Positions 29,618 through 44,562 of a stretch of 64,000 nucleotides of DNA are shown here, one piece after another. A model generated the notes under the pieces. That model searched no databases, was not told where the DNA came from, and worked only from the letters and a program-made list of their open reading frames with translations. The DNA lies in NCBI RefSeq assembly GCF_003344965.1, contig NZ_CP031194.1, forward strand, positions 5,580,001-5,644,000, in the 5' to 3' direction. The stretch comes from Streptomyces paludis (lineage in GTDB: Bacteria > Actinomycetota > Actinomycetes > Streptomycetales > Streptomycetaceae). A program made the position numbers and the translations under genes. Within the stretch, counting starts at the first letter, position 1. Each line of letters begins with the position of its first letter.

Positions 29618-30622
29618 TCACCCCCGGCGGAGGATCTCCATGGCCAGCGCTTCGGAGTGCTTCCAGGTGCCCGCGGTGGCGAGGACGTCGCCGCTGTTGA
29701 ACACCGAGTCCTGGCCGCTCGTGGCCCGGTCGTACAGCGCCTTCACGTCCCGGCCGAAGTAGGGGCTGTACGACACGTCGTCGGTGTCCCCGCCGGTCTT
29801 CCAGCCGCCGATCACCCCGACGATTCCCCACCCGGACACCCGCTTGACGAGGAACGGCCCGCCGGAGGAGCCGCCCGAGTAGGCCGCGCACTCGATCCGG
29901 AGGAAGGACCCCGGAATGCCGGGCGTCGGGCTGTCGAACCGTTCGGTTCTGTCGGTGCAGTCGAGCGGATGCCGCTGGTTGGCCGGATAGCCGACGAGCC
30001 GTACGGGATAGTGCGCGTATCCGGCGTCGATCATCAAGTCCGCGCCGCCAACCACGTCTTGGACGTTCTTTCCGTCACGCGGCTCCAATCGCGCGAAATT
30101 GAAATCCAGCGTGGCGGCGGCGTTGCGGCCCTTGGTCAGATACCGCTGGTTGAGGAAAACGCCGCCCGGCTTGACGGAAAAGGAGCCGTAGGGCTTCTTT
30201 CCGTCGTCGTACTGCGGAACGAAGGCGAGGTTCGGCCGGGCGGATGTCCCGTCGAAACAGTGGGCCGCGCTCATGACGAGGTTCTTTCCCGGACTGTTGA
30301 CCACGGTCCCGCCGCAGAAATGCCCCGATCCCTTCGCGTCACTCCAGAAGAACGTCCCCACGATCGGCAGCCCCTCGAACGGCCGACTGGGTGACCGGGC
30401 CGCCGGGTTACGGGCTTCCGCGTTGCGGGCTTCCGCCTGCTCCGTATCCCCGGTTGGCACGGGCTGGGCGGCCCGCATACGGGAGGCGGTCCAGTAACGG
30501 TCGGTGGACCCGTCGGACGATGAGGAGTGGTGGCCGGACGGAGTGGCATGAGCGGCCGGGAACGGCAGAAAGAGGAACAGAGCACCACCCAGGAACAGGG
30601 CCGGTGTCCTGACGTTTCGCAT
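29618..30622 (-). CDS. Secreted trypsin-like serine protease
   Basis: 334 aa. Signal peptide about residues 1-26 (ALFLGGALFLFLPFPAAHA), a low-complexity propeptide to about residue 85, then a chymotrypsin-fold domain. The triad is visible: His121 in MSAAHCFDG, Asp173 in TLDFNFARL, Ser253 in GGSSGGPF; Cys103/Cys122 and Cys222/Cys245 could form disulfides. Closest in style to the V8/glutamyl-type trypsin-like proteases of Streptomyces. ATG 30622 has CAGGAG nine bases upstream. It is divergent from the small peptide/methyltransferase unit at 30736; whether it processes that peptide is speculation. Confidence 0.9.
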   Translation of the reverse strand: MRNVRTPALFLGGALFLFLPFPAAHATPSGHHSSSSDGSTDRYWTASRMRAAQPVPTGDTEQAEARNAEARNPAARSPSRPFEGLPIVGTFFWSDAKGSGHFCGGTVVNSPGKNLVMSAAHCFDGTSARPNLAFVPQYDDGKKPYGSFSVKPGGVFLNQRYLTKGRNAAATLDFNFARLEPRDGKNVQDVVGGADLMIDAGYAHYPVRLVGYPANQRHPLDCTDRTERFDSPTPGIPGSFLRIECAAYSGGSSGGPFLVKRVSGWGIVGVIGGWKTGGDTDDVSYSPYFGRDVKALYDRATSGQDSVFNSGDVLATAGTWKHSEALAMEILRRG

Positions 30623-30735
30623 GGCTGACGTCTCCTGTGAGTCCCTTGAGCGCCTTGAGGGCCTTGAGCGCCTGCGGTGCAAAGCGCCGAGCGGTGCACG
30701 ATCCTACGGCTGTGGCGGCCGGGGAGAAGGGATTG

Positions 30736-30873
30736 ATGGCCAAAGTCACGCTTGGCGACTACTCGCCAAGCTGTAGCGACCTGGCTGGGCGCGCTGCTTC
30801 AATCGAGCCGGATCCGAAGGGCGGATCTCCTGGGAGTGGATCTCCCGAAGGTGACGGAAATCGATGCACGTGA
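30736..30873 (+). CDS. Candidate RiPP precursor peptide (imiditide-like) A
   Basis: 45 aa. It starts MAKVTLGDYS and has a C-terminal half rich in Gly, Ser and Pro, ending GSGSPEGDGNRCT, with a single Asp-Gly near the end; Asp-Gly is the bond most prone to aspartimide formation. SD GGAGAAGG (30723-30730) lies 5 bases before ATG 30736. The stop overlaps the methyltransferase start by 10 nt, so the two are coupled. In the other PIMT unit (33392-33538) a tiny Asp-Gly-bearing gene also precedes the enzyme. Caution: a perfect inverted repeat CTTGGCGA-CTAC-TCGCCAAG (30751-30770) lies in the early codons and could mean that this stretch is an operator and the frame is accidental. A GTG at 30637 would extend it antisense to the protease and is rejected. 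Confidence 0.55.
   Translation: MAKVTLGDYSPSCSDLAGRAASIEPDPKGGSPGSGSPEGDGNRCT
30751..30770. repeat. Perfect inverted repeat inside candidate precursor A
   Basis: 8-bp arms with a 4-nt CTAC loop, about 94 bp before the methyltransferase start. It is either an operator for this unit and the divergent protease, or an RNA hairpin within the peptide coding sequence. Confidence 0.5.
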
Positions 30874-32069
30874 CTTCAGCGTCCCCAGTCGAACGCCGCG
30901 CCCGCGAGGAAATGGCGCGGCACCTGATCGACATCGACGTCCTCACCAAGGAGTGGGCCGAGGCGTTCCGGGCCGTGCCCCGCTCGCGATTCCTCCCGGA
31001 CCCGTTCTGGGCGTACGACATGGAGAGCGGCCGTAGCGACTCGGTGCGGCGCGCGGCGGGGGAAGACGCCTGGGCGCGGGCCGCGTACGCGAACGTACCG
31101 CTGGTCACGCAGTGGGACGACGGGCAGCACTCAGGCACGGAGTCGGGCGCGCGGGCAACCAGTTCGGCGAGCATGCCCTCGGTGGTCGCCGCCATGCTGC
31201 GCGACCTCGACGTCCGCGACGGTATGCGCGTACTGGAGGTTGGCACCGGCACCGGCTGGAACGCCGGTCTCCTCGCCCATCGTCTCGGCGGCGAGAACGT
31301 CGTCAGTGTCGAGATCGACCCGGCCGTCGCCGCCCGCGCCTCGGCCGCGCTGAAACGCGCGGGACTCGACCCGCTCGTGATCGAAGGCGACGGCCGCGAC
31401 GGCTGGGCGCCCGGTGCGCCGTACGACCGGGTGATCGCCACCGCCGGCGTACGGGACCTCCCGCCGCGCTGGCTGGAACAGACACGCCCCGGTGGGATCG
31501 TCCTCGCGCCCTGGGGGACCCATTACAGCAACCAGGACGCTGTGGTCCGGCTGACGGTTGGCGAGGACGGCCGTGCTCACGGACCGTTCCTCTCGATGGT
31601 CGAATTCATGAAGCTGAGGGATCAGCGGCTCGACTGGAACCGGTTCGGTGGACACGTACGGGACTTCCCCGGCGACGCGGACGTCTCCAGGACATCCCTG
31701 ACACCGGCGGATCTCGGCGACCGCTACGACACCCCGAACTTCGTGGCCGGCCTCCTCGTCCCCGACTGCGCCCACGTCCTCAACGACGGCCCCTCCGGCG
31801 AACCCGGCGACGCGAAAGCGTGGTTCTTCGACTTCGGCAGCCTCTCCTGGGCGGCCGTCGTCTTCACCCCGGGCGACCCGGAGGCCACCGTCCACCAGTC
31901 GGGACCGCGCCGTCTCTGGGACGAGGTCGAGCGGGCGCTGACCTGGTGGATCGGCGTCGGCAGACCGGAGTTCGACCGGTTCGGACTCACGGTGGACGGT
32001 GACGGCACCACGCGACCGTGGCTGGACGGCCCGGAGAATGTCCTGCCGTCCTGCCGTCCGCTCGCCTGA
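30864..32069 (+). CDS. PIMT-type O-methyltransferase, RiPP-associated, copy A
   Basis: 401 aa. The core is a protein-L-isoaspartyl methyltransferase-like fold: RAVPRSRFLP near residue 37, WDDGQHSGTESGARATSSAS (loop near the substrate site), SAM motif RVLEVGTGTG at 122-131, VVSVEIDP. It is much longer than housekeeping PIMT (about 210 aa). The C-terminal extension ends with Trp361-Trp362, then GRPEFDRFGLTV at 366-377. This tail is typical of enzymes that methylate Asp in RiPP precursors to form aspartimide (lasso peptides, graspetides, lanthipeptides, imiditides). No lanthionine synthetase, ATP-grasp or lasso cyclase is nearby, so it resembles the stand-alone imiditide arrangement. Its 3' end is 26 bp from that of copy B. 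Confidence 0.9.
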   Translation: MHVTSASPVERRAREEMARHLIDIDVLTKEWAEAFRAVPRSRFLPDPFWAYDMESGRSDSVRRAAGEDAWARAAYANVPLVTQWDDGQHSGTESGARATSSASMPSVVAAMLRDLDVRDGMRVLEVGTGTGWNAGLLAHRLGGENVVSVEIDPAVAARASAALKRAGLDPLVIEGDGRDGWAPGAPYDRVIATAGVRDLPPRWLEQTRPGGIVLAPWGTHYSNQDAVVRLTVGEDGRAHGPFLSMVEFMKLRDQRLDWNRFGGHVRDFPGDADVSRTSLTPADLGDRYDTPNFVAGLLVPDCAHVLNDGPSGEPGDAKAWFFDFGSLSWAAVVFTPGDPEATVHQSGPRRLWDEVERALTWWIGVGRPEFDRFGLTVDGDGTTRPWLDGPENVLPSCRPLA

Positions 32070-32095
32070 AGGGCATCGCCTGAGAGCGGGGGGCC

Positions 32096-33340
32096 TCACA
32101 CCCGCCAGGACCCCTCGCCCGGCCGGTCCAGCCAGGCCCGTTGCCCGTCCGCGCCGACCGTCAGCCCGAACCGTTCGAACCCCGGCCGCCCCGCCCGGTC
32201 CCACCACCGGAACGCCGCCTCGACCTCCGTCCACAGCGCACGCGGCCCCGACTGGACGACCGCGAACTCGACCGCGCCCGGGACGACATCGGCGGTGGCC
32301 CACGACGCGGTGTCGGCGCTGTACAGCCACAGGGTGTACGCGCCACCGCCGTCGGCCCCGCCGGTGCCGTCCGCCTCGCCCGCGCCGTCCGCCTTCTCGC
32401 CGTACCGCTCGGCACGCCAGAAAACGCCCGGCACCCGGAGCCCGATGACGAACTGGGCGAGCCACCCGCCGGTCTCGGCGGGCGAGAGCGAGGTGGTACT
32501 CCGCACCCCGTCGGCGGGCCAGGCCCGGCCCCTCAGATACGCGGCGAACGGCGGCCTCGGCAGGCGCTGTTGACGCAGCCGCATAAAGGCGGACGAGCGC
32601 GTGAAGGACCCCGAGGCCACCCCGTCCGCCACGATCAGCCGGACGACCGCCTCGCCGCCGTATTCCGTTCCCCAGGGCGCGACGATGATCCCGCCGTCCT
32701 CCGTCTGCCGGACCCAGTCGTACGGCACGTCCCCGACCGAACAGGTCGCGACGGTCCGGCTGTACGGGCCCCCGGCGCCATGCCCGAGCCTGCCGTCACC
32801 GACCACGACGGCCGCCTCCAGCCCGGCCCGGCGCAGATTCGCGACGGCGGCGCGGGCGACCGTCGCGTCGTACTCGACACTGACCACGTTCCCGCCGCCG
32901 AGGCGGTGGGCGAGCAGCCCGGCGTTCCAGCCGGTGCCGGTGCCGATCTCCAGGGCCCTGCCGCCGTCCCGTACGGCGGTCACTTCGAGGTCCGCAAGCA
33001 TGGAGAACACCATGCGCGGCATGGAACTGGAACTGGTGGGCCTGGTCCCGAGCCCATCACCCCGGTGCCGCCCGTCGTCCCACTGCGTCGTCAGCGGGAC
33101 ATCGGAATACACGGCGGCCCGCCAGGCGACGGGGTCCTTGGCGCGGTCGACGAGCGCGGTCTGCCGGCTCCCGTCCGCGACACCCGGCCAGATCCTGTCC
33201 GGCACGAACAACTCCCGGGGAACTGCCCGGAACGCCGCCAACCAGTCCTCGGCCAGCGCGCCGGCGTCCACGAGCACGGAGGCGAGCGCGTGGGGGGCCC
33301 CGGGGCCTTGGGAGCCCATCTCTTGTGTACGTGACGTCAT
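32096..33340 (-). CDS. PIMT-type O-methyltransferase, RiPP-associated, copy B
   Basis: 414 aa, homologous to copy A over its whole length: RAVPRELFVPDRIWPG, PLTTQWDDGRHRGDG, SAM motif RALEIGTGTG at 128-137 followed by WNAGLLAHRLGG, which is identical in copy A. The C-terminal tail has Trp379-Trp380 and GRPGFERFGLTV at 384-395. An Asp/Gly/Ala-rich insertion (about residues 318-332) is not in copy A. ATG 33340 has GAGGAAG upstream. The candidate precursor gene ends 51 nt upstream on the same strand. Same proposed role as copy A: methyl ester formation on a specific Asp of the partner peptide, with spontaneous closure to aspartimide. Housekeeping repair of isoaspartate is the alternative but does not explain the tail or the paired small genes. 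Confidence 0.9.
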   Translation of the reverse strand: MTSRTQEMGSQGPGAPHALASVLVDAGALAEDWLAAFRAVPRELFVPDRIWPGVADGSRQTALVDRAKDPVAWRAAVYSDVPLTTQWDDGRHRGDGLGTRPTSSSSMPRMVFSMLADLEVTAVRDGGRALEIGTGTGWNAGLLAHRLGGGNVVSVEYDATVARAAVANLRRAGLEAAVVVGDGRLGHGAGGPYSRTVATCSVGDVPYDWVRQTEDGGIIVAPWGTEYGGEAVVRLIVADGVASGSFTRSSAFMRLRQQRLPRPPFAAYLRGRAWPADGVRSTTSLSPAETGGWLAQFVIGLRVPGVFWRAERYGEKADGAGEADGTGGADGGGAYTLWLYSADTASWATADVVPGAVEFAVVQSGPRALWTEVEAAFRWWDRAGRPGFERFGLTVGADGQRAWLDRPGEGSWRV

Positions 33341-33391
33341 GACTTCCTCGCTTCTGCGCCCGTGGTTCCGGTGCGGGTGGCGCTCCGCCCC

Positions 33392-33538
33392 CTACTTGCC
33401 GGTCGCCGGACCGGAACCGTCACTGCTGTTACCGCCTTCGTCCGACCCGCCCCCACCGTGCTTCGCGCCGCTGTTCGAGTCGTCCTGCTGGCTCCCGCCC
33501 TGGCCGTCGCCGGCGCCGCCGCTGTGCTGACCACCCAT
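33392..33538 (-). CDS. Candidate RiPP precursor peptide (imiditide-like) B
   Basis: 48 aa, found by translating the complement by hand. Extremely rich in Gly, Ser, Asp and Gln with no hydrophobic stretch; starts MGGQHSGGAGDGQGG, contains QQDDSNSG, and ends GNSSDGSGPATGK. Two Asp-Gly and one Asp-Asp-Ser site are present. SD GGGAG lies 7 bases before ATG 33538, and the methyltransferase copy B begins 51 nt after the stop, so this is a peptide-enzyme pair. The composition, lack of Cys and small size are not those of a folded protein. No protease cleavage motif is obvious. Precursor role is inferred from the pairing and from the known stand-alone PIMT RiPP systems. Confidence 0.68.
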   Translation of the reverse strand: MGGQHSGGAGDGQGGSQQDDSNSGAKHGGGGSDEGGNSSDGSGPATGK

Positions 33539-33671: not shown

Positions 33672-34511
33672 TCACGGCACGGCCACCTGCGCGCGTGCCC
33701 GCACGATAAGGCGGTGCGCCTGGTGGCCGTACAGGGCTGATCCCTGGAGCAGGCGCCAGAGCTTCGTGTAGAAGGCGACCTCCTCCGGGGAGTCGAGCCA
33801 CAACTCCGCGTTCCAGGTGTCGGCGACGACCAGTCGCTTATCGATGTTCCAGAACCCGTGCTTCGGGGAGAACGGCGTACGGGCGCCGAACGGGATCACG
33901 CCCAGAGAGACCGTCTTCAGGCCGATCAGACCGACCAGCCGGTCCAACTGCGCGGCCATCCCCTCCGGGCCGCACCGCGCAACGTGCAGTGCCGCCTCCC
34001 AGACGATCGCGTGGAAAGCACGACCGGGCTGGTACAGGGCTTCCTGGCGTTTCATACGTGCCCGTACGCCGTCCTCGATGTCCCTCGGAGTGCCGAGCCG
34101 GTCCGACACGTCGGTCAGCACGCCTCGGGCGTACTCGGGGGTCTGGAAGATGCCGGGGACGATGGCGGACTCGAAGAGGTGAATCGTCTCGGCCCGGGAC
34201 TCCTGGAGGACATGGGCCTCCTGAACCGCGCGGTGCCCCGCCGCGAGCTGCCGCCGCCAGCTGCGGTACGTCGTCTCCAACCCGCGCAGCCGGCCTCGTA
34301 ACTCTCCGGCCGCACCAGGGGCCACCGCGCGCGCCCACGCCTCGACATCGACCTCGGTGGCGGTCTGCTTCCCGTTCTCCAGCCGGCTGACCTTGGAAGG
34401 CTGCCAGGCCAGCCGGAGCGCCATCTGCTTGCCGTTGAGCCCGGCCTCGACGCGCAGTTCCCGCAGCCGCGCACCGAGCGCCTCACGGGCCTGCTGAAAA
34501 TCGGTGCTCAC
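33672..34511 (-). CDS. XRE-family regulator with DUF5753
   Basis: 279 aa. Helix-turn-helix at about residues 10-60 (LGARLRELRVEAGLNGKQMALRLAW is the usual lead, QPSKVSRLENGKQ the recognition helix), then a DUF5753 domain (FESAIVPGIFQTPEYAR to WRLLQGSALYGHQAHRLI). Starts at GTG 34511, overlapping the DUF6879 stop by 4 nt. In Streptomyces such regulators pair with small DUF397 or DUF6879 proteins in many copies per genome. The gene is 133 bp upstream of candidate precursor B on the same strand, so it may control the peptide-methyltransferase unit or belong to an independent module. Confidence 0.9.
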   Translation of the reverse strand: MSTDFQQAREALGARLRELRVEAGLNGKQMALRLAWQPSKVSRLENGKQTATEVDVEAWARAVAPGAAGELRGRLRGLETTYRSWRRQLAAGHRAVQEAHVLQESRAETIHLFESAIVPGIFQTPEYARGVLTDVSDRLGTPRDIEDGVRARMKRQEALYQPGRAFHAIVWEAALHVARCGPEGMAAQLDRLVGLIGLKTVSLGVIPFGARTPFSPKHGFWNIDKRLVVADTWNAELWLDSPEEVAFYTKLWRLLQGSALYGHQAHRLIVRARAQVAVP

Positions 34512-35044
34512 ACAAGCGAAGCTACCTCGGCCAAAAACCCTTCACGCCGCGTCGCGTGGTGCCAGGCGGCGTCCCTGAACCGGCAGTACCGCACAATGTG
34601 CGCCGGGTCCTCGATCAACTCGGAGCCGAGATACTCGTCTTCGTCGTCGAAGTGGAGCAGAAGCGCCCGGCGCGAGTCGAAGAGCCAGAAGTCCTCCGTC
34701 GGCAGTGCGAGGGCCTCGGCCCGAGGGCGCCACATGTTCCGGATGTCCTCGCCCGCGGCATTGTTGCTCGCTGCCGCGGCCAGCAGGAACAACTGCCCCT
34801 GTGTGGGCGGCCGGTCGACGACGCGGACCCGCTCGACGCGCTTGCCCAAGCCCGTCTGAACGCGGATGTTGGTACCCCAGGGGCGGTTGCTGTCGTCGGG
34901 CAGGGGTTCCCCTGCGACGAAGCGGGCGTACTTCTCGACGGCGCGGTCGGAGGCGTACCCGCGCCGTGTCTCCAGCCGCCAGGCAGTGTGTTCGAAGTCG
35001 GTGAAGTAGTCACCGAAAGTGGAGTCATCGATGAACTGCGGCAT
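34508..35044 (-). CDS. DUF6879 family protein
   Basis: 178 aa, cytoplasmic, no membrane segment. The family is recognised by the lead TFGDYFTDFEHTAWRLETRRGY, the RVRVVDRPPTQGQLFLLAAA stretch and FWLFDSRRALLLHFDDEDEYLG. These proteins sit next to XRE-DUF5753 regulators across Streptomyces and are thought to modulate them; there is no proven biochemistry. ATG 35044 has AAGGAG upstream; the frame is open further but antisense-like. Overlaps the XRE gene by 4 nt and lies 5 bp after the 69-aa gene, so the three form one operon. Confidence 0.87.
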   Translation of the reverse strand: MPQFIDDSTFGDYFTDFEHTAWRLETRRGYASDRAVEKYARFVAGEPLPDDSNRPWGTNIRVQTGLGKRVERVRVVDRPPTQGQLFLLAAAASNNAAGEDIRNMWRPRAEALALPTEDFWLFDSRRALLLHFDDEDEYLGSELIEDPAHIVRYCRFRDAAWHHATRREGFLAEVASLV

Positions 35045-35049
35045 GGGAG

Positions 35050-35259
35050 CTACTCCTTGGGAGCGAAGCGGGTGAGCAGGTCGCGGGGGACGACGACGAA
35101 GGACTCGCCGTCGAGGACGTTGTCCAGCTGAGCGACGTCGTCGGGGTCGACGAGGGTGTAGCCCTGGACGATGATGTCGCCGCTGTCGAGGTCCTCGTAC
35201 AGCGTGGGGCACTTGCCGTCGTCGGAGGTGGTGCCGAGCAGCTTCAGGCTGCGGGCCAT
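35050..35259 (-). CDS. Small acidic protein of the XRE/DUF6879 operon, unknown
   Basis: 69 aa, starts MARSLKLLGTTSDDGKC. Strongly acidic in the middle (LYEDLDSGD, LVDPDDVAQLD) and ends VVVPRDLLTRFAPKE. Not recognised by domain, but small proteins of this size and charge are commonly the first gene before DUF6879. ATG 35259 is chosen because AAGGAG is 8 bases upstream; an in-frame region 55 codons longer has no SD. The DUF6879 gene starts 5 bp after its stop. Confidence 0.75.
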   Translation of the reverse strand: MARSLKLLGTTSDDGKCPTLYEDLDSGDIIVQGYTLVDPDDVAQLDNVLDGESFVVVPRDLLTRFAPKE

Positions 35260-35425
35260 GTCCTGACTCCTTGTCGGGGTACTTGGCATACGTGGTGCAG
35301 TCGGTGGAACGTCAGCCATCAGGTTGCGCTGGATGACGTTGCCCGGCACAGGAATTGCGCGGGATTGCGATTCGGGGCGGTGCGCGGGCGCGATATTCGC
35401 GGCCTGTGGGGCGCGCGAGGTCACG

Positions 35426-42036: not shown

Positions 42037-42663
42037 ATGATGCACAAGCGCATGATCACCGCGATCGCCGCAGTGGCCGCCCTCGGCGTCGCGGGGGTGA
42101 CCGCAGCGCAGGCGGTCGCCGCGCCGGCCGGTGTTTCGTCGATCGCGGTCTCCGCTTCGAGCGTGGCCGATGACGGGCGCGCGGTCTTCGCCGGGATCTT
42201 CTTCCTCCAGGGCGAGGTCGGCGCGGAACTGTCGAAGTCCCCGGCCTTCTCGGACCCGGCGGGGTGGATGGCCGAGAACGACACGGACGAGGCGCGGAGC
42301 GAGGTCGGGGCGCTGATCGAGGAGATCCAGGCGGGACAGCCGGGATTCTTCGGCGAGTTCGGGGACAGGATGCGCTCCGGCGACCCGCGCAAGGTCGAGA
42401 GCGCTCTGGACGAGGCCGGCGCTGTTCTGGCGGAGTACGTGGCCAAGACCGAGGGCGGGCTCAAGGACGTCGCCGCCGGTGACGGCCGGGGTCAGGGGCG
42501 CTGTGTGCTGAACGTCGCGGTGGCCGGCAACGTCGTCCTCGCGCTGAATGTCGTCAACGTCGCCAACGTCATCAACAAGGTCAACCTGTGGGTGGCCCCC
42601 GCCGACCAGGACCTGAGCAAGGAAGAGACGATCCGCGACCTGACCCAGCTTCTCGCCGCCTGA
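42037..42663 (+). CDS. SdpC-family antimicrobial peptide precursor
   Basis: 208 aa, like Bacillus SdpC (203 aa). Signal peptide to about residue 29 (AVAA), then the family hallmark AVFAGIFFLQGEVGAEL (49-65), an acidic helical region, and near the end a hydrophobic stretch (about 155-186: VLNVAVAGNVVLALNVVNVA) corresponding to the mature SDP toxin. SDP is cut out of SdpC and kills by collapsing membrane potential (known in B. subtilis, where a disulfide is formed). Only one Cys (Cys156) lies at the start of this stretch, so that internal disulfide cannot form here. SD AGGGG upstream. A hairpin separates it from sdpA and sdpB. Confidence 0.83.
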   Translation: MMHKRMITAIAAVAALGVAGVTAAQAVAAPAGVSSIAVSASSVADDGRAVFAGIFFLQGEVGAELSKSPAFSDPAGWMAENDTDEARSEVGALIEEIQAGQPGFFGEFGDRMRSGDPRKVESALDEAGAVLAEYVAKTEGGLKDVAAGDGRGQGRCVLNVAVAGNVVLALNVVNVANVINKVNLWVAPADQDLSKEETIRDLTQLLAA

Positions 42664-42770
42664 CGCTGGGCGTTCAGCTCTGACCAGCCGACCGGGCAGG
42701 CGCCTGTCCGGCCAGCCGTGAATCGGTGTCGGCGCCCAGGCAGCCCCCCCCACGCCGGTGCGCGACACAA

Positions 42771-42807
42771 GGCCGGGCCACCCTCGGTGCATGAGGGTGG
42801 CCCGGCC
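42771..42807 (+). terminator. Hairpin between the sdpC-like and sdpA-like genes
   Basis: 15-bp perfect arms GGCCGGGCCACCCTC / GAGGGTGGCCCGGCC with a 7-nt loop. It would give high sdpC and lower sdpAB expression from one promoter, or mark separate units. Confidence 0.82.
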
Positions 42808-42916
42808 GTTCCATTATCGCGGAAGCCGCCGGGCCGGCGCACCCTTTCGGCCTTCACAAAAAGGGATGTGGCGCCCCTCCGCGCCTTTTCGCTGAAATTC
42901 TTCTCATGGGATACGG

Positions 42917-43531
42917 ATGACTTCACGAATCAGCGAGAGATTTCCCCTTCGGACCGAAGAGCCGCAGACCACAGGGGTCCCCCGCGCATGGCTCACCGCC
43001 GTCGTCGCGGTGGGCGCCGTCGCCGTCCTCTACACCGCTCAGGCTCATGTTCCGAAGAACGTACTCACCCTGCCGGGACAGCAACAGGTCGCCGGTGGGG
43101 TGCACGCGGTGGCCCCCCAGGGGTGGGCCTTCTTCACCAAGTCACCCCGGGACCCCGAACTGGTCCCCTACCGGTACGCCGGCACGTCCTGGAAGACCGT
43201 CTCCATGGGGCCGCATTCCAGACCGTCCAACGCGTTCGGGCTCGACCGCGCGTCCAGGTCGCAGGGCATCGAGATGGCCCTGCTGCTCAACGAGGCGCCG
43301 GAGCTGAAGTGGACCGAGTGCGAGGACCATCCCGACGTGGAGACCTGCCTGGAATCCATCACCTCCGCCTCCGCCGACGGCCCCGCCCGTATCCGTAACC
43401 GGTCCCCGGAACCGACACTCTGCGGGACCGTGGCCATCGTGCAGGCCGAACCGGTGCCGTGGGCCTGGCGGGATCTGATGGATGCCACGCACACGCCCGG
43501 ACGCGCGGCCGTGTGGGAGGTGACGTGCTGA
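42917..43531 (+). CDS. SdpA-family toxin maturation protein
   Basis: 204 aa. One N-terminal membrane segment (about 25-46: AWLTAVVAVGAVAVLYTAQA), then the SdpA core around QGWAFFTKSPRDPELVPYR. SdpA is needed with SdpB to turn SdpC into active toxin in Bacillus. Bacillus SdpA is soluble, whereas this one looks anchored. Its last codons overlap the sdpB-like start by 1 nt (TGATG). Five cysteines in the C-terminal half (ECEDHPDVETC, TLCGTV, VTC) are unusual for the family. Confidence 0.85.
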   Translation: MTSRISERFPLRTEEPQTTGVPRAWLTAVVAVGAVAVLYTAQAHVPKNVLTLPGQQQVAGGVHAVAPQGWAFFTKSPRDPELVPYRYAGTSWKTVSMGPHSRPSNAFGLDRASRSQGIEMALLLNEAPELKWTECEDHPDVETCLESITSASADGPARIRNRSPEPTLCGTVAIVQAEPVPWAWRDLMDATHTPGRAAVWEVTC

Positions 43532-44562
43532 TGCGTGACGTGCTGATACGTACGATCCCCTTGCCGTGGACGAATGTGTACGGAGTCGCCCGTACCCTCG
43601 CCGCTCTCGGCACCGCCGGGACCCTTGCCTTCTCCTCCGCGCGTACTCTCTTCCGGCCGGTGGCGCTGACCGGTGAGTATCCGCTGTGCGAGGGCATCTC
43701 GGCGGCCGGTGTCTTCTGTCTCGCTCCGGACGGCCACACGGGTCTTACCTGGGCCAAGTGGCTCTGTGTGCTGCTGCTTCTGGCGGTCGCCTCGGGATGG
43801 CGGCCCCGGCTCACGGCGCTGCCGCACGCGTACATCTCCTTCAGTGTGTACACGGGAATCGCCATCGGGGACGGCGGCGATCAGATCACCAGTGTGGTCA
43901 CCCTGCTGCTGGTCCTGCCCGCGCTGGGCGACGGACGCCGGTGGCACTGGCAGACCGCGGGGCGTGAGCCGGACGCGCGGGAGAACGCGGGCACGGCGTA
44001 CCGCGGGGCGTGGGCACTCGTCGGTGTGACGGGTCTGGTGCTGCTGCGCGTGCAGATGTCGTTCCTGTACTTCCAGGCCGCGGTGGCGAAGCTGCCGCAC
44101 ACGGAGTGGGCCGACGGCACGGCCATGTGGTACTGGGGGACCAGCCTCTCCTTCGGCGCGCCGCCCTGGCTGGAGCCCCTGATGACGCCCATTCTCCGGC
44201 TGCCGCTGGGAGTCGCGCTGCTCACCTGGCTGCCCCTCGTTGTGGAGATGAGCCTGGCCGTCGCGCTGCTGCTGCCGCAGCGCCTGCGGTGGCCGGTGAT
44301 GGGCGCCGGTCTCGCCTTTCACCTGTCGATCGCGGTGGTGATGGGGCTGTGGAGCTTCGCGTTCGCGATGGCCGCGGGCATTGTCGTGCTGTGCTGCCCG
44401 CTCGGGGGCGTGCTGCGCCGTCGCGTTACCGGACCGGGCGGCCGGGCGGGCGGTCAGTGTGCGGGCGAGACGGAGGTGGGTGTGGTGGAGAGGCAGTTGG
44501 TGAAGGCCGAGAGTGTCTCCTCGTCGGAGAATCCCAGCTCACGGGCGAGTGCGACGGCCTGA
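43531..44562 (+). CDS. SdpB-family membrane maturation protein
   Basis: 343 aa with about seven or eight membrane segments of the HTTM / gamma-carboxylase-like type. Features of SdpB: NVYGVARTLAALGTAGTL near the start, ALPHAYISFSVYTGIAIGDGGDQ, YFQAAVAKLPHTEWADGTAMWYW, and VEMSLAVALLL. Acts with SdpA on SdpC. ATG 43531 overlaps the sdpA stop. The last 36 codons are hydrophilic and lie antisense to the convergent GntR gene (109-bp overlap), so the true protein may have evolved a longer tail; the fold probably ends near residue 300. Confidence 0.87.
   Translation: MRDVLIRTIPLPWTNVYGVARTLAALGTAGTLAFSSARTLFRPVALTGEYPLCEGISAAGVFCLAPDGHTGLTWAKWLCVLLLLAVASGWRPRLTALPHAYISFSVYTGIAIGDGGDQITSVVTLLLVLPALGDGRRWHWQTAGREPDARENAGTAYRGAWALVGVTGLVLLRVQMSFLYFQAAVAKLPHTEWADGTAMWYWGTSLSFGAPPWLEPLMTPILRLPLGVALLTWLPLVVEMSLAVALLLPQRLRWPVMGAGLAFHLSIAVVMGLWSFAFAMAAGIVVLCCPLGGVLRRRVTGPGGRAGGQCAGETEVGVVERQLVKAESVSSSENPSSRASATA

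Follow-up and report, generated by a model that had tools for sequence, protein, structure and literature searches.

The closest described relatives of the system examined here are the imiditides, or type I pamtides, ribosomally synthesized and post-translationally modified peptides (RiPPs) exemplified by NmaA-NmaM and SpaA-SpaM, in which a precursor of about 45 aa lies directly before a peptide aspartyl O-methyltransferase (PAMT) with an extra C-terminal domain and a WXXXGXP motif. These systems are actinobacterial, with no cyclase found nearby; the enzymes SpaM and NmaM have been reported to modify a single Asp in a linear peptide, giving +14- and −18-Da species (PMC10787088, PMC13001092), and hydrolysis restores the original mass, the isoaspartate product being not directly confirmed for SpaM (PMC10787088). 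Here we analyze a locus of Streptomyces paludis lying in a 64,000-nt stretch that we call the window (positions 5,580,001-5,644,000 in an 8.45-Mb genome that consists of a single contig), in which an earlier note, made from the sequence alone, had described two such peptide-enzyme pairs, pep1-PIMT1 and pep2-PIMT2. Our best explanation, to which we give a probability of roughly 0.78, is that pep2-PIMT2 is a stand-alone imiditide pair and that PIMT1 comes from a second, broken-up locus of which pep1 is the leftover tail. Among the open-licence papers that our literature searches listed, we found no title or abstract opening describing paired or convergent PAMT loci. The main features are listed below in window coordinates, A and B being the two precursor families described in the following paragraphs.

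30736-30873, plus strand: pep1 open reading frame (ORF), 45 aa, a probable remnant of a family A precursor with its head missing
30836-30873, plus strand: stretch probably kept from the tail of a family A precursor, matching locus L066 and overlapping the translation start of PIMT1
30864-32069, plus strand: PIMT1, 401 aa, an intact PAMT of the family A side with no recognizable cognate precursor
32096-33340, minus strand: PIMT2, 414 aa, a PAMT with C-terminal domain, partner of pep2
33392-33538, minus strand: pep2, 48-aa Gly/Ser/Asp-rich precursor of family B, imiditide (type I pamtide)

The coordinates that the earlier note gave for these four genes all hold, as do the convergent orientation of the two enzymes, the 10-nt overlap between pep1 and the ATG of PIMT1, the 51-nt gap between pep2 and PIMT2, the Shine-Dalgarno (SD)-like sequence (GGAG) before each small ORF and the Asp-Gly near both C termini. 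Its description of the peptides as Gly/Ser-rich is likewise borne out (17.8% Gly and 15.6% Ser in pep1; 37.5% Gly and 16.7% Ser in pep2). The start of PIMT1 could perhaps be GTG 30870 instead, which would give a GTGA overlap like that at the related locus L013.

Both enzymes match the PCMT domain in a Pfam scan and carry the Trp-Trp and GRPxFxRFGLTV sequences reported before, together with the WXXXGXP motif (W-DRA-GRP in PIMT2, W-IGV-GRP in PIMT1). The top-scoring family model for each is TIGR04188, the graspetide-associated PAMT (331.8 bits for PIMT1, 286.8 bits for PIMT2), although both stay below its curated cut-off of 380, and the scores against TIGR04364, the related methyltransferase of FxLD systems that is also of the protein-L-isoaspartate methyltransferase (PIMT) type, are far from the cut-off of 320 (129.6 and 80.2 bits). 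Housekeeping PIMT models reach at most 112.3 bits for PIMT1 and 81.3 bits for PIMT2, supporting the earlier assignment of both to the RiPP type; the opposite ranking, which that note had named as evidence against itself, did not occur. Among 29 ORFs Pfam-scanned between 13.8 and 48.3 kb, we found no lanthipeptide, lasso, ATP-grasp or YcaO match, also as predicted, so that the locus differs in its neighbors from graspetide and FxLD (lanthipeptide) systems. A predicted model of PIMT2 aligns to the Thermotoga maritima PIMT (1DL5) along model residues 15-406; that structure was deposited as a protein-L-isoaspartate methyltransferase, and the literature consulted names no precursor peptide for it. 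A protein search with PIMT2, in which 8000 candidates were scored, gave 431 proteins at E ≤ 1e-100, and the names among the matches listed (the best 120 of the 431) include Streptomyces, Kitasatospora and Yinghuangia.

The peptide before PIMT2 is more than a chance ORF, as the earlier note had proposed: pep2 scored 61.1 bits against a family B profile built without it, a score equalled by none of 1000 shuffles. Family B has the consensus ...QDDSxSGxKHGGGGSDEGGNTSDGxGP..., and its core blocks show a pN/pS (nonsynonymous to synonymous polymorphism) of 0.32 (27 of 28 genes, pep2 included), with changes mostly silent. Across an alignment of 26 other members, from which L081 and pep2 itself were left out, the column of pep2 Asp20 is Asp in 26/26 and that of Asp40 in 22/26, and we regard these two as candidate modified residues. 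At 48 aa, Gly/Asp-rich and with a highly conserved Asp, pep2 resembles the known precursors of about 45 aa, and the pair has the two-gene make-up of the imiditide class, a precursor and a PAMT with no other RiPP primary enzyme in the ORFs scanned. By these sequence features, pep2-PIMT2 is a member of this known class. Family B differs in being Gly/Ser-rich and Pro-poor (28 peptides including pep2: Gly 29.8%, Pro 3.6%, Asp 12.7%), a comparison made with the published type I mean only (Gly 17.3%, Pro 16.8%, Asp 10.2%; available part of PMC10787088); pep2 has a single Pro, and the published 16.8% is a mean, not a stated requirement. The two CxxCxGxG motifs of cysimiditides (type II pamtides) are absent from both peptides, pep2 having no Cys and pep1 two Cys outside any such motif. 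A plasmid search with pep2 found no match, and a search by shared words over 5.8 billion proteins gave only seven candidates. Separately, we noticed a 56-aa protein (P0006) in which a helix-turn-helix start is joined to a family B peptide tail, perhaps through a deletion between a regulator and an adjoining precursor.

To survey how enzymes and peptides are paired, we collected PIMT1 and PIMT2 homologues at E ≤ 1e-100 in 199 genomes, added 17 loci from named genomes and inspected the ORFs lying upstream. At 59 of 64 distinct loci outside the window (six further homologue matches without a locus stand outside this count), the enzyme is immediately preceded by an intact small peptide that has an SD-like sequence, of family A in 32 cases (31 recognized by script and L029 manually) and of family B in 27. 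At the other five, L061 (genome G048) keeps only a family B tail, its core missing, before a long PAMT ORF; L068, from Wenjunlia tyrosinilytica, has a frameshifted family A peptide before a long PAMT ORF, for which a sequencing error is possible; and at L035, L036 and L078 no precursor was recognized upstream of the enzyme. Searching in the other direction with six-frame profiles of the 199 genomes, we found family B at 26 places, spread over 21 genomes that include that of the window, with a PAMT, whole or broken, directly downstream at all 26. The family A profile matched 41 places in 30 genomes, and 27 of the 30 loci fetched have a PAMT downstream, the three misses being the weakest of the 30 (E 1.2e-4 to 4.4e-4). 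This profile test is partly circular because the profiles were built from PAMT-adjacent peptides of largely the same genomes; among new loci retrieved from a second, less circular sample of 147 genomes, a PAMT lies downstream in 5/5 cases for family B and 8/8 for family A, one of the eight (L230) probably being the same as L069 and not new. Within these 147 genomes of the order, all family A and B matches fall in the window's genus, one of five genera sampled, the genus's share of the 147 being uncounted. Finally, a family A-type PIMT1 homologue is present in 26 genomes besides that of S. paludis (29 genomes less S. paludis itself and G039 and G051, where the match is a family B enzyme), and 25 of these have a family A profile match; in G165 and G180 that match is located elsewhere than the PIMT1 homologue, and a peptide visible in G089 (L017) escaped the profile.

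The pairing of pep2 with PIMT2 suggested by the earlier note is therefore conserved, in 26/26 places and 5/5 further loci. This conservation, together with the model scores given above, also bears on a more prosaic account, in which PIMT1 and PIMT2 act as PIMTs in protein repair and the small ORFs are there by chance: the PCMT domain would suit it, but with housekeeping models not exceeding 112 and 81 bits where TIGR04188 reaches 332 and 287 bits, and with the pep2 family kept beside a PAMT, we consider it highly improbable.

In a quick tree of 70 enzymes, enzyme clade and peptide family agree. A branch with a Shimodaira-Hasegawa-like approximate likelihood ratio (SH-aLRT) support of 99 splits off 28 rows, PIMT2 among them, of which 27 have a family B peptide and one its deleted form. 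PIMT1 groups with L065 and L066 (SH-aLRT 99), by name its nearest relatives from Streptomyces sp. MnatMP-M17 and S. scopuliridis, inside a family A side of 37 rows (92). Family B offers a Gly-rich, Pro-poor precursor family with enzymes on their own branch, in which pep2-PIMT2 is a bounded, testable pair, and its pairs should be useful for learning how PAMTs choose linear peptides. Five paralogues from the S. paludis genome stand apart on long branches. Elsewhere in the same genome, two more PAMT-like genes (G000:C1:2957109, L003; 2649246, L004) each lie behind a 36-aa peptide of a third kind, the two peptides sharing GKPDTxESDGH.

By enzyme clade, the slot before PIMT1 should hold a family A peptide. 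These Pro-rich precursors, which precede the PIMT1-clade relatives, have the consensus ...PGxPWxPP..PPxPDG... and core blocks with a pN/pS of 0.36 (23 of 31 genes), again with mostly silent changes. PDG occurs in 32/32 of them, which is not a blind count, the class rule having sought PDG or a Pro/Trp core before PDG/PGG; an unfiltered upstream listing showed no other peptide type at family A loci. Both PDG and the PGxPWxPP...PDG core are absent from pep1, whose 5.0 bits against the family A1 profile were equalled by 23 of 1000 shuffles and so do not exceed chance, and the same shared-word protein search gave no candidate for pep1, tiny ORFs often being unannotated. The GC content at third codon positions (GC3) of pep1, 0.56, lies below that of 31 family A ORFs (0.65-0.95) and 27 family B ORFs (0.76-1.00), the precursors of its nearest relatives also being low (L066, 0.65; L065, 0.74).

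We then compared the DNA upstream of PIMT1 with that of five relatives (L065, L066, L012, L013 and L014). With L066, and with no other of the five, pep1 shares an in-register match, 25 nt at 30836-30860, as high a score arising in 1/500 dinucleotide shuffles; the similarity begins at 30836, so that it takes in about the last 12 of the 45 pep1 codons; when the alignment is extended into the start of PIMT1, the L066 match runs over 30836-30925 and an L065 match over 30850-30918. L012 gave a 12-nt match out of register (7/500 shuffles), and L013 and L014 gave nothing. In control comparisons, the whole precursor of L065 could be aligned with that of L066 and with that of L012 (0/200 shuffles each), and the core of L066 with L013 (5/200). 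The simplest reading of these alignments is that pep1 lost its leader and core or had them replaced, with an exact breakpoint that rests on one relative; pep1 probably represents a family A precursor reduced to its tail, and the PIMT1 locus has probably lost its precursor. A simple frameshift was considered and rejected, as the family A profiles gave no score in any reading frame of 30561-30900. Looking for a source of the 5' part of pep1, we found 11 other genomes of 392 that match nearby DNA, none of them into pep1 (ten only around 30638-30681, at CCTTGAG repeats, and L091, at 74% identity, to about 30717), no plasmid match, and no Pfam match in three overlapping ORFs tried. This unmatched part also contains, at 30750-30771, a perfect 9-bp inverted repeat with a 4-nt loop. 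Elsewhere in the genome, a family A search found nothing at E ≤ 0.001 (36 of 96 first-look candidates scored) and, at E up to 10, 13 weak matches among the 150 of 327 candidates scored, the best of them (E 0.0555) being interrupted by an inner stop.

The earlier note had taken pep1 for a second working precursor and the locus for a source of two products, which would make pep1 a fast-evolved, functional partner of PIMT1. An open frame, an SD-like sequence, the right length and position, Asp40-Gly and a conserved PIMT1 all fit that proposal. Two products are nonetheless unlikely because the PIMT1 slot, family A by clade, is without the family A core, and the missing PDG, the shuffle-level profile score, a match to L066 confined to the tail, the lowest GC3 compared and the lack of any homologue found speak against it too. 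Conservation of the small ORFs, which the note had wanted examined, is seen for the pep2 family beside its PAMT, and no homologue of pep1 was found. The pep1 case, which L061 and L068 resemble, suggests that a precursor can disappear while its enzyme survives; comparison is needed before any small ORF ahead of a PAMT is accepted as a precursor.

Gene order offers a view of how this layout may have arisen. L065 has the order P450, pepA-PIMT1, a homologue of p35512 (a DUF6415 match below the Pfam cut-off), HATPase and XRE, with about 170 bp between PIMT1 and the p35512 homologue vs 3.4 kb in the window, where PIMT2, pep2 and the three genes below fill the interval.

33672-34511, minus strand: XRE-DUF5753 regulator (PF19054 and PF13560), upstream of pep2
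34508-35032, minus strand: DUF6879 protein (PF21806), in the same trio as the regulator and the next ORF
35050-35424, minus strand: third member of the trio (35050 ORF), no match in the Pfam scan

On the other side, P450 and pep1 are separated in the window by a Clp_N gene and a trypsin-like gene; relatives of the latter are at most 65% identical. P450-pepA-PIMT1 is shared by L066, whose p35512 homologue is more distant; HATPase and XRE are not shared. This suggests that a pep2-PIMT2 unit with XRE, DUF6879 and the small gene was inserted behind PIMT1, and the Clp_N/trypsin-like pair before pep1.

Several points weigh against our preferred reading of a broken-up PIMT1 locus beside an imiditide pair. 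The start of homology in pep1 hangs on one relative, L066, the L065 comparison having scored 18.0, no better than shuffles (242/500), and the proposed insertions draw on a pair of relatives for the left side and a single one for the right. The family A profile does not detect every member, as its miss at L017 shows, and the own-genome candidates were scored in part; pep1 itself keeps an open frame, an SD-like sequence, a normal 45-aa length and Asp-Gly. PIMT1 is intact and has low dN/dS (nonsynonymous to synonymous substitution rates), which is odd for an enzyme without a substrate: all pairwise values with seven relatives are 0.21-0.31, that with L065 being 0.21. PIMT1 differs at 6 of 148 sites invariant in ten relatives (other enzymes, 0-12), and its branch is about 1.15-2.3 times as long as the L065 and L066 branches, whichever of eight outgroups is taken. 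These data allow either recent precursor loss or a function kept on another substrate. The latter would be the case if PIMT1 had been recruited in trans to pep2 or another peptide of the cell, with no role left for the pep1 tail but translational coupling; purifying selection on an enzyme whose family A substrate was not detected, and the overlap of that tail with the PIMT1 start, are consistent with this, and two PAMTs of different clades would then act on one imiditide substrate. Across the rest of the tree, however, enzyme side matches peptide family, and imiditide PAMTs are specific through charge contacts according to the available part of a review (PMC13001092), and we hold recruitment in trans to be doubtful, a shade less probable than a functional pep1.

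In the sequence of events that we favor, PIMT1 would once have belonged to a second imiditide locus with the other precursor family. The pep2-PIMT2 unit, with XRE, DUF6879 and the small protein, would have arrived behind it, and the Clp_N and trypsin-like genes before pep1; the pep1 leader and core would have been lost, leaving the last 12 or so codons overlapping the PIMT1 start. By analogy with the published SpaM and NmaM, from which we infer the chemistry, pep2 would be translated and recognized by PIMT2 through its C-terminal domain, and PIMT2 would methylate one Asp side chain with S-adenosylmethionine; the methyl ester would then close to an aspartimide, and hydrolysis to isoaspartate may follow.

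The order p35050-DUF6879-XRE-pepB-PAMT, whole or in part, also occurs at L116, L118, L155/L221, L156/L215, L157 and L161/L213, and XRE-DUF6879 stands ahead of a family A pair in L166, L176/L200 and L180. The trio was present in 30/30 loci fetched for the XRE gene (the window's own included), but a PAMT lies within the 1.5-kb flanks in five of these and not in 25, and we rejected the idea of a pamtide-specific trio. The window also contains, at 42037-44562 on the plus strand and some 9 kb away from the imiditide locus, an sdpCAB-like toxin peptide operon, in which SdpC scores 80.3 bits against TIGR04032 (below the cut-off of 99.2) and SdpA (TIGR04034) and SdpB (TIGR04033) score above cut-off.

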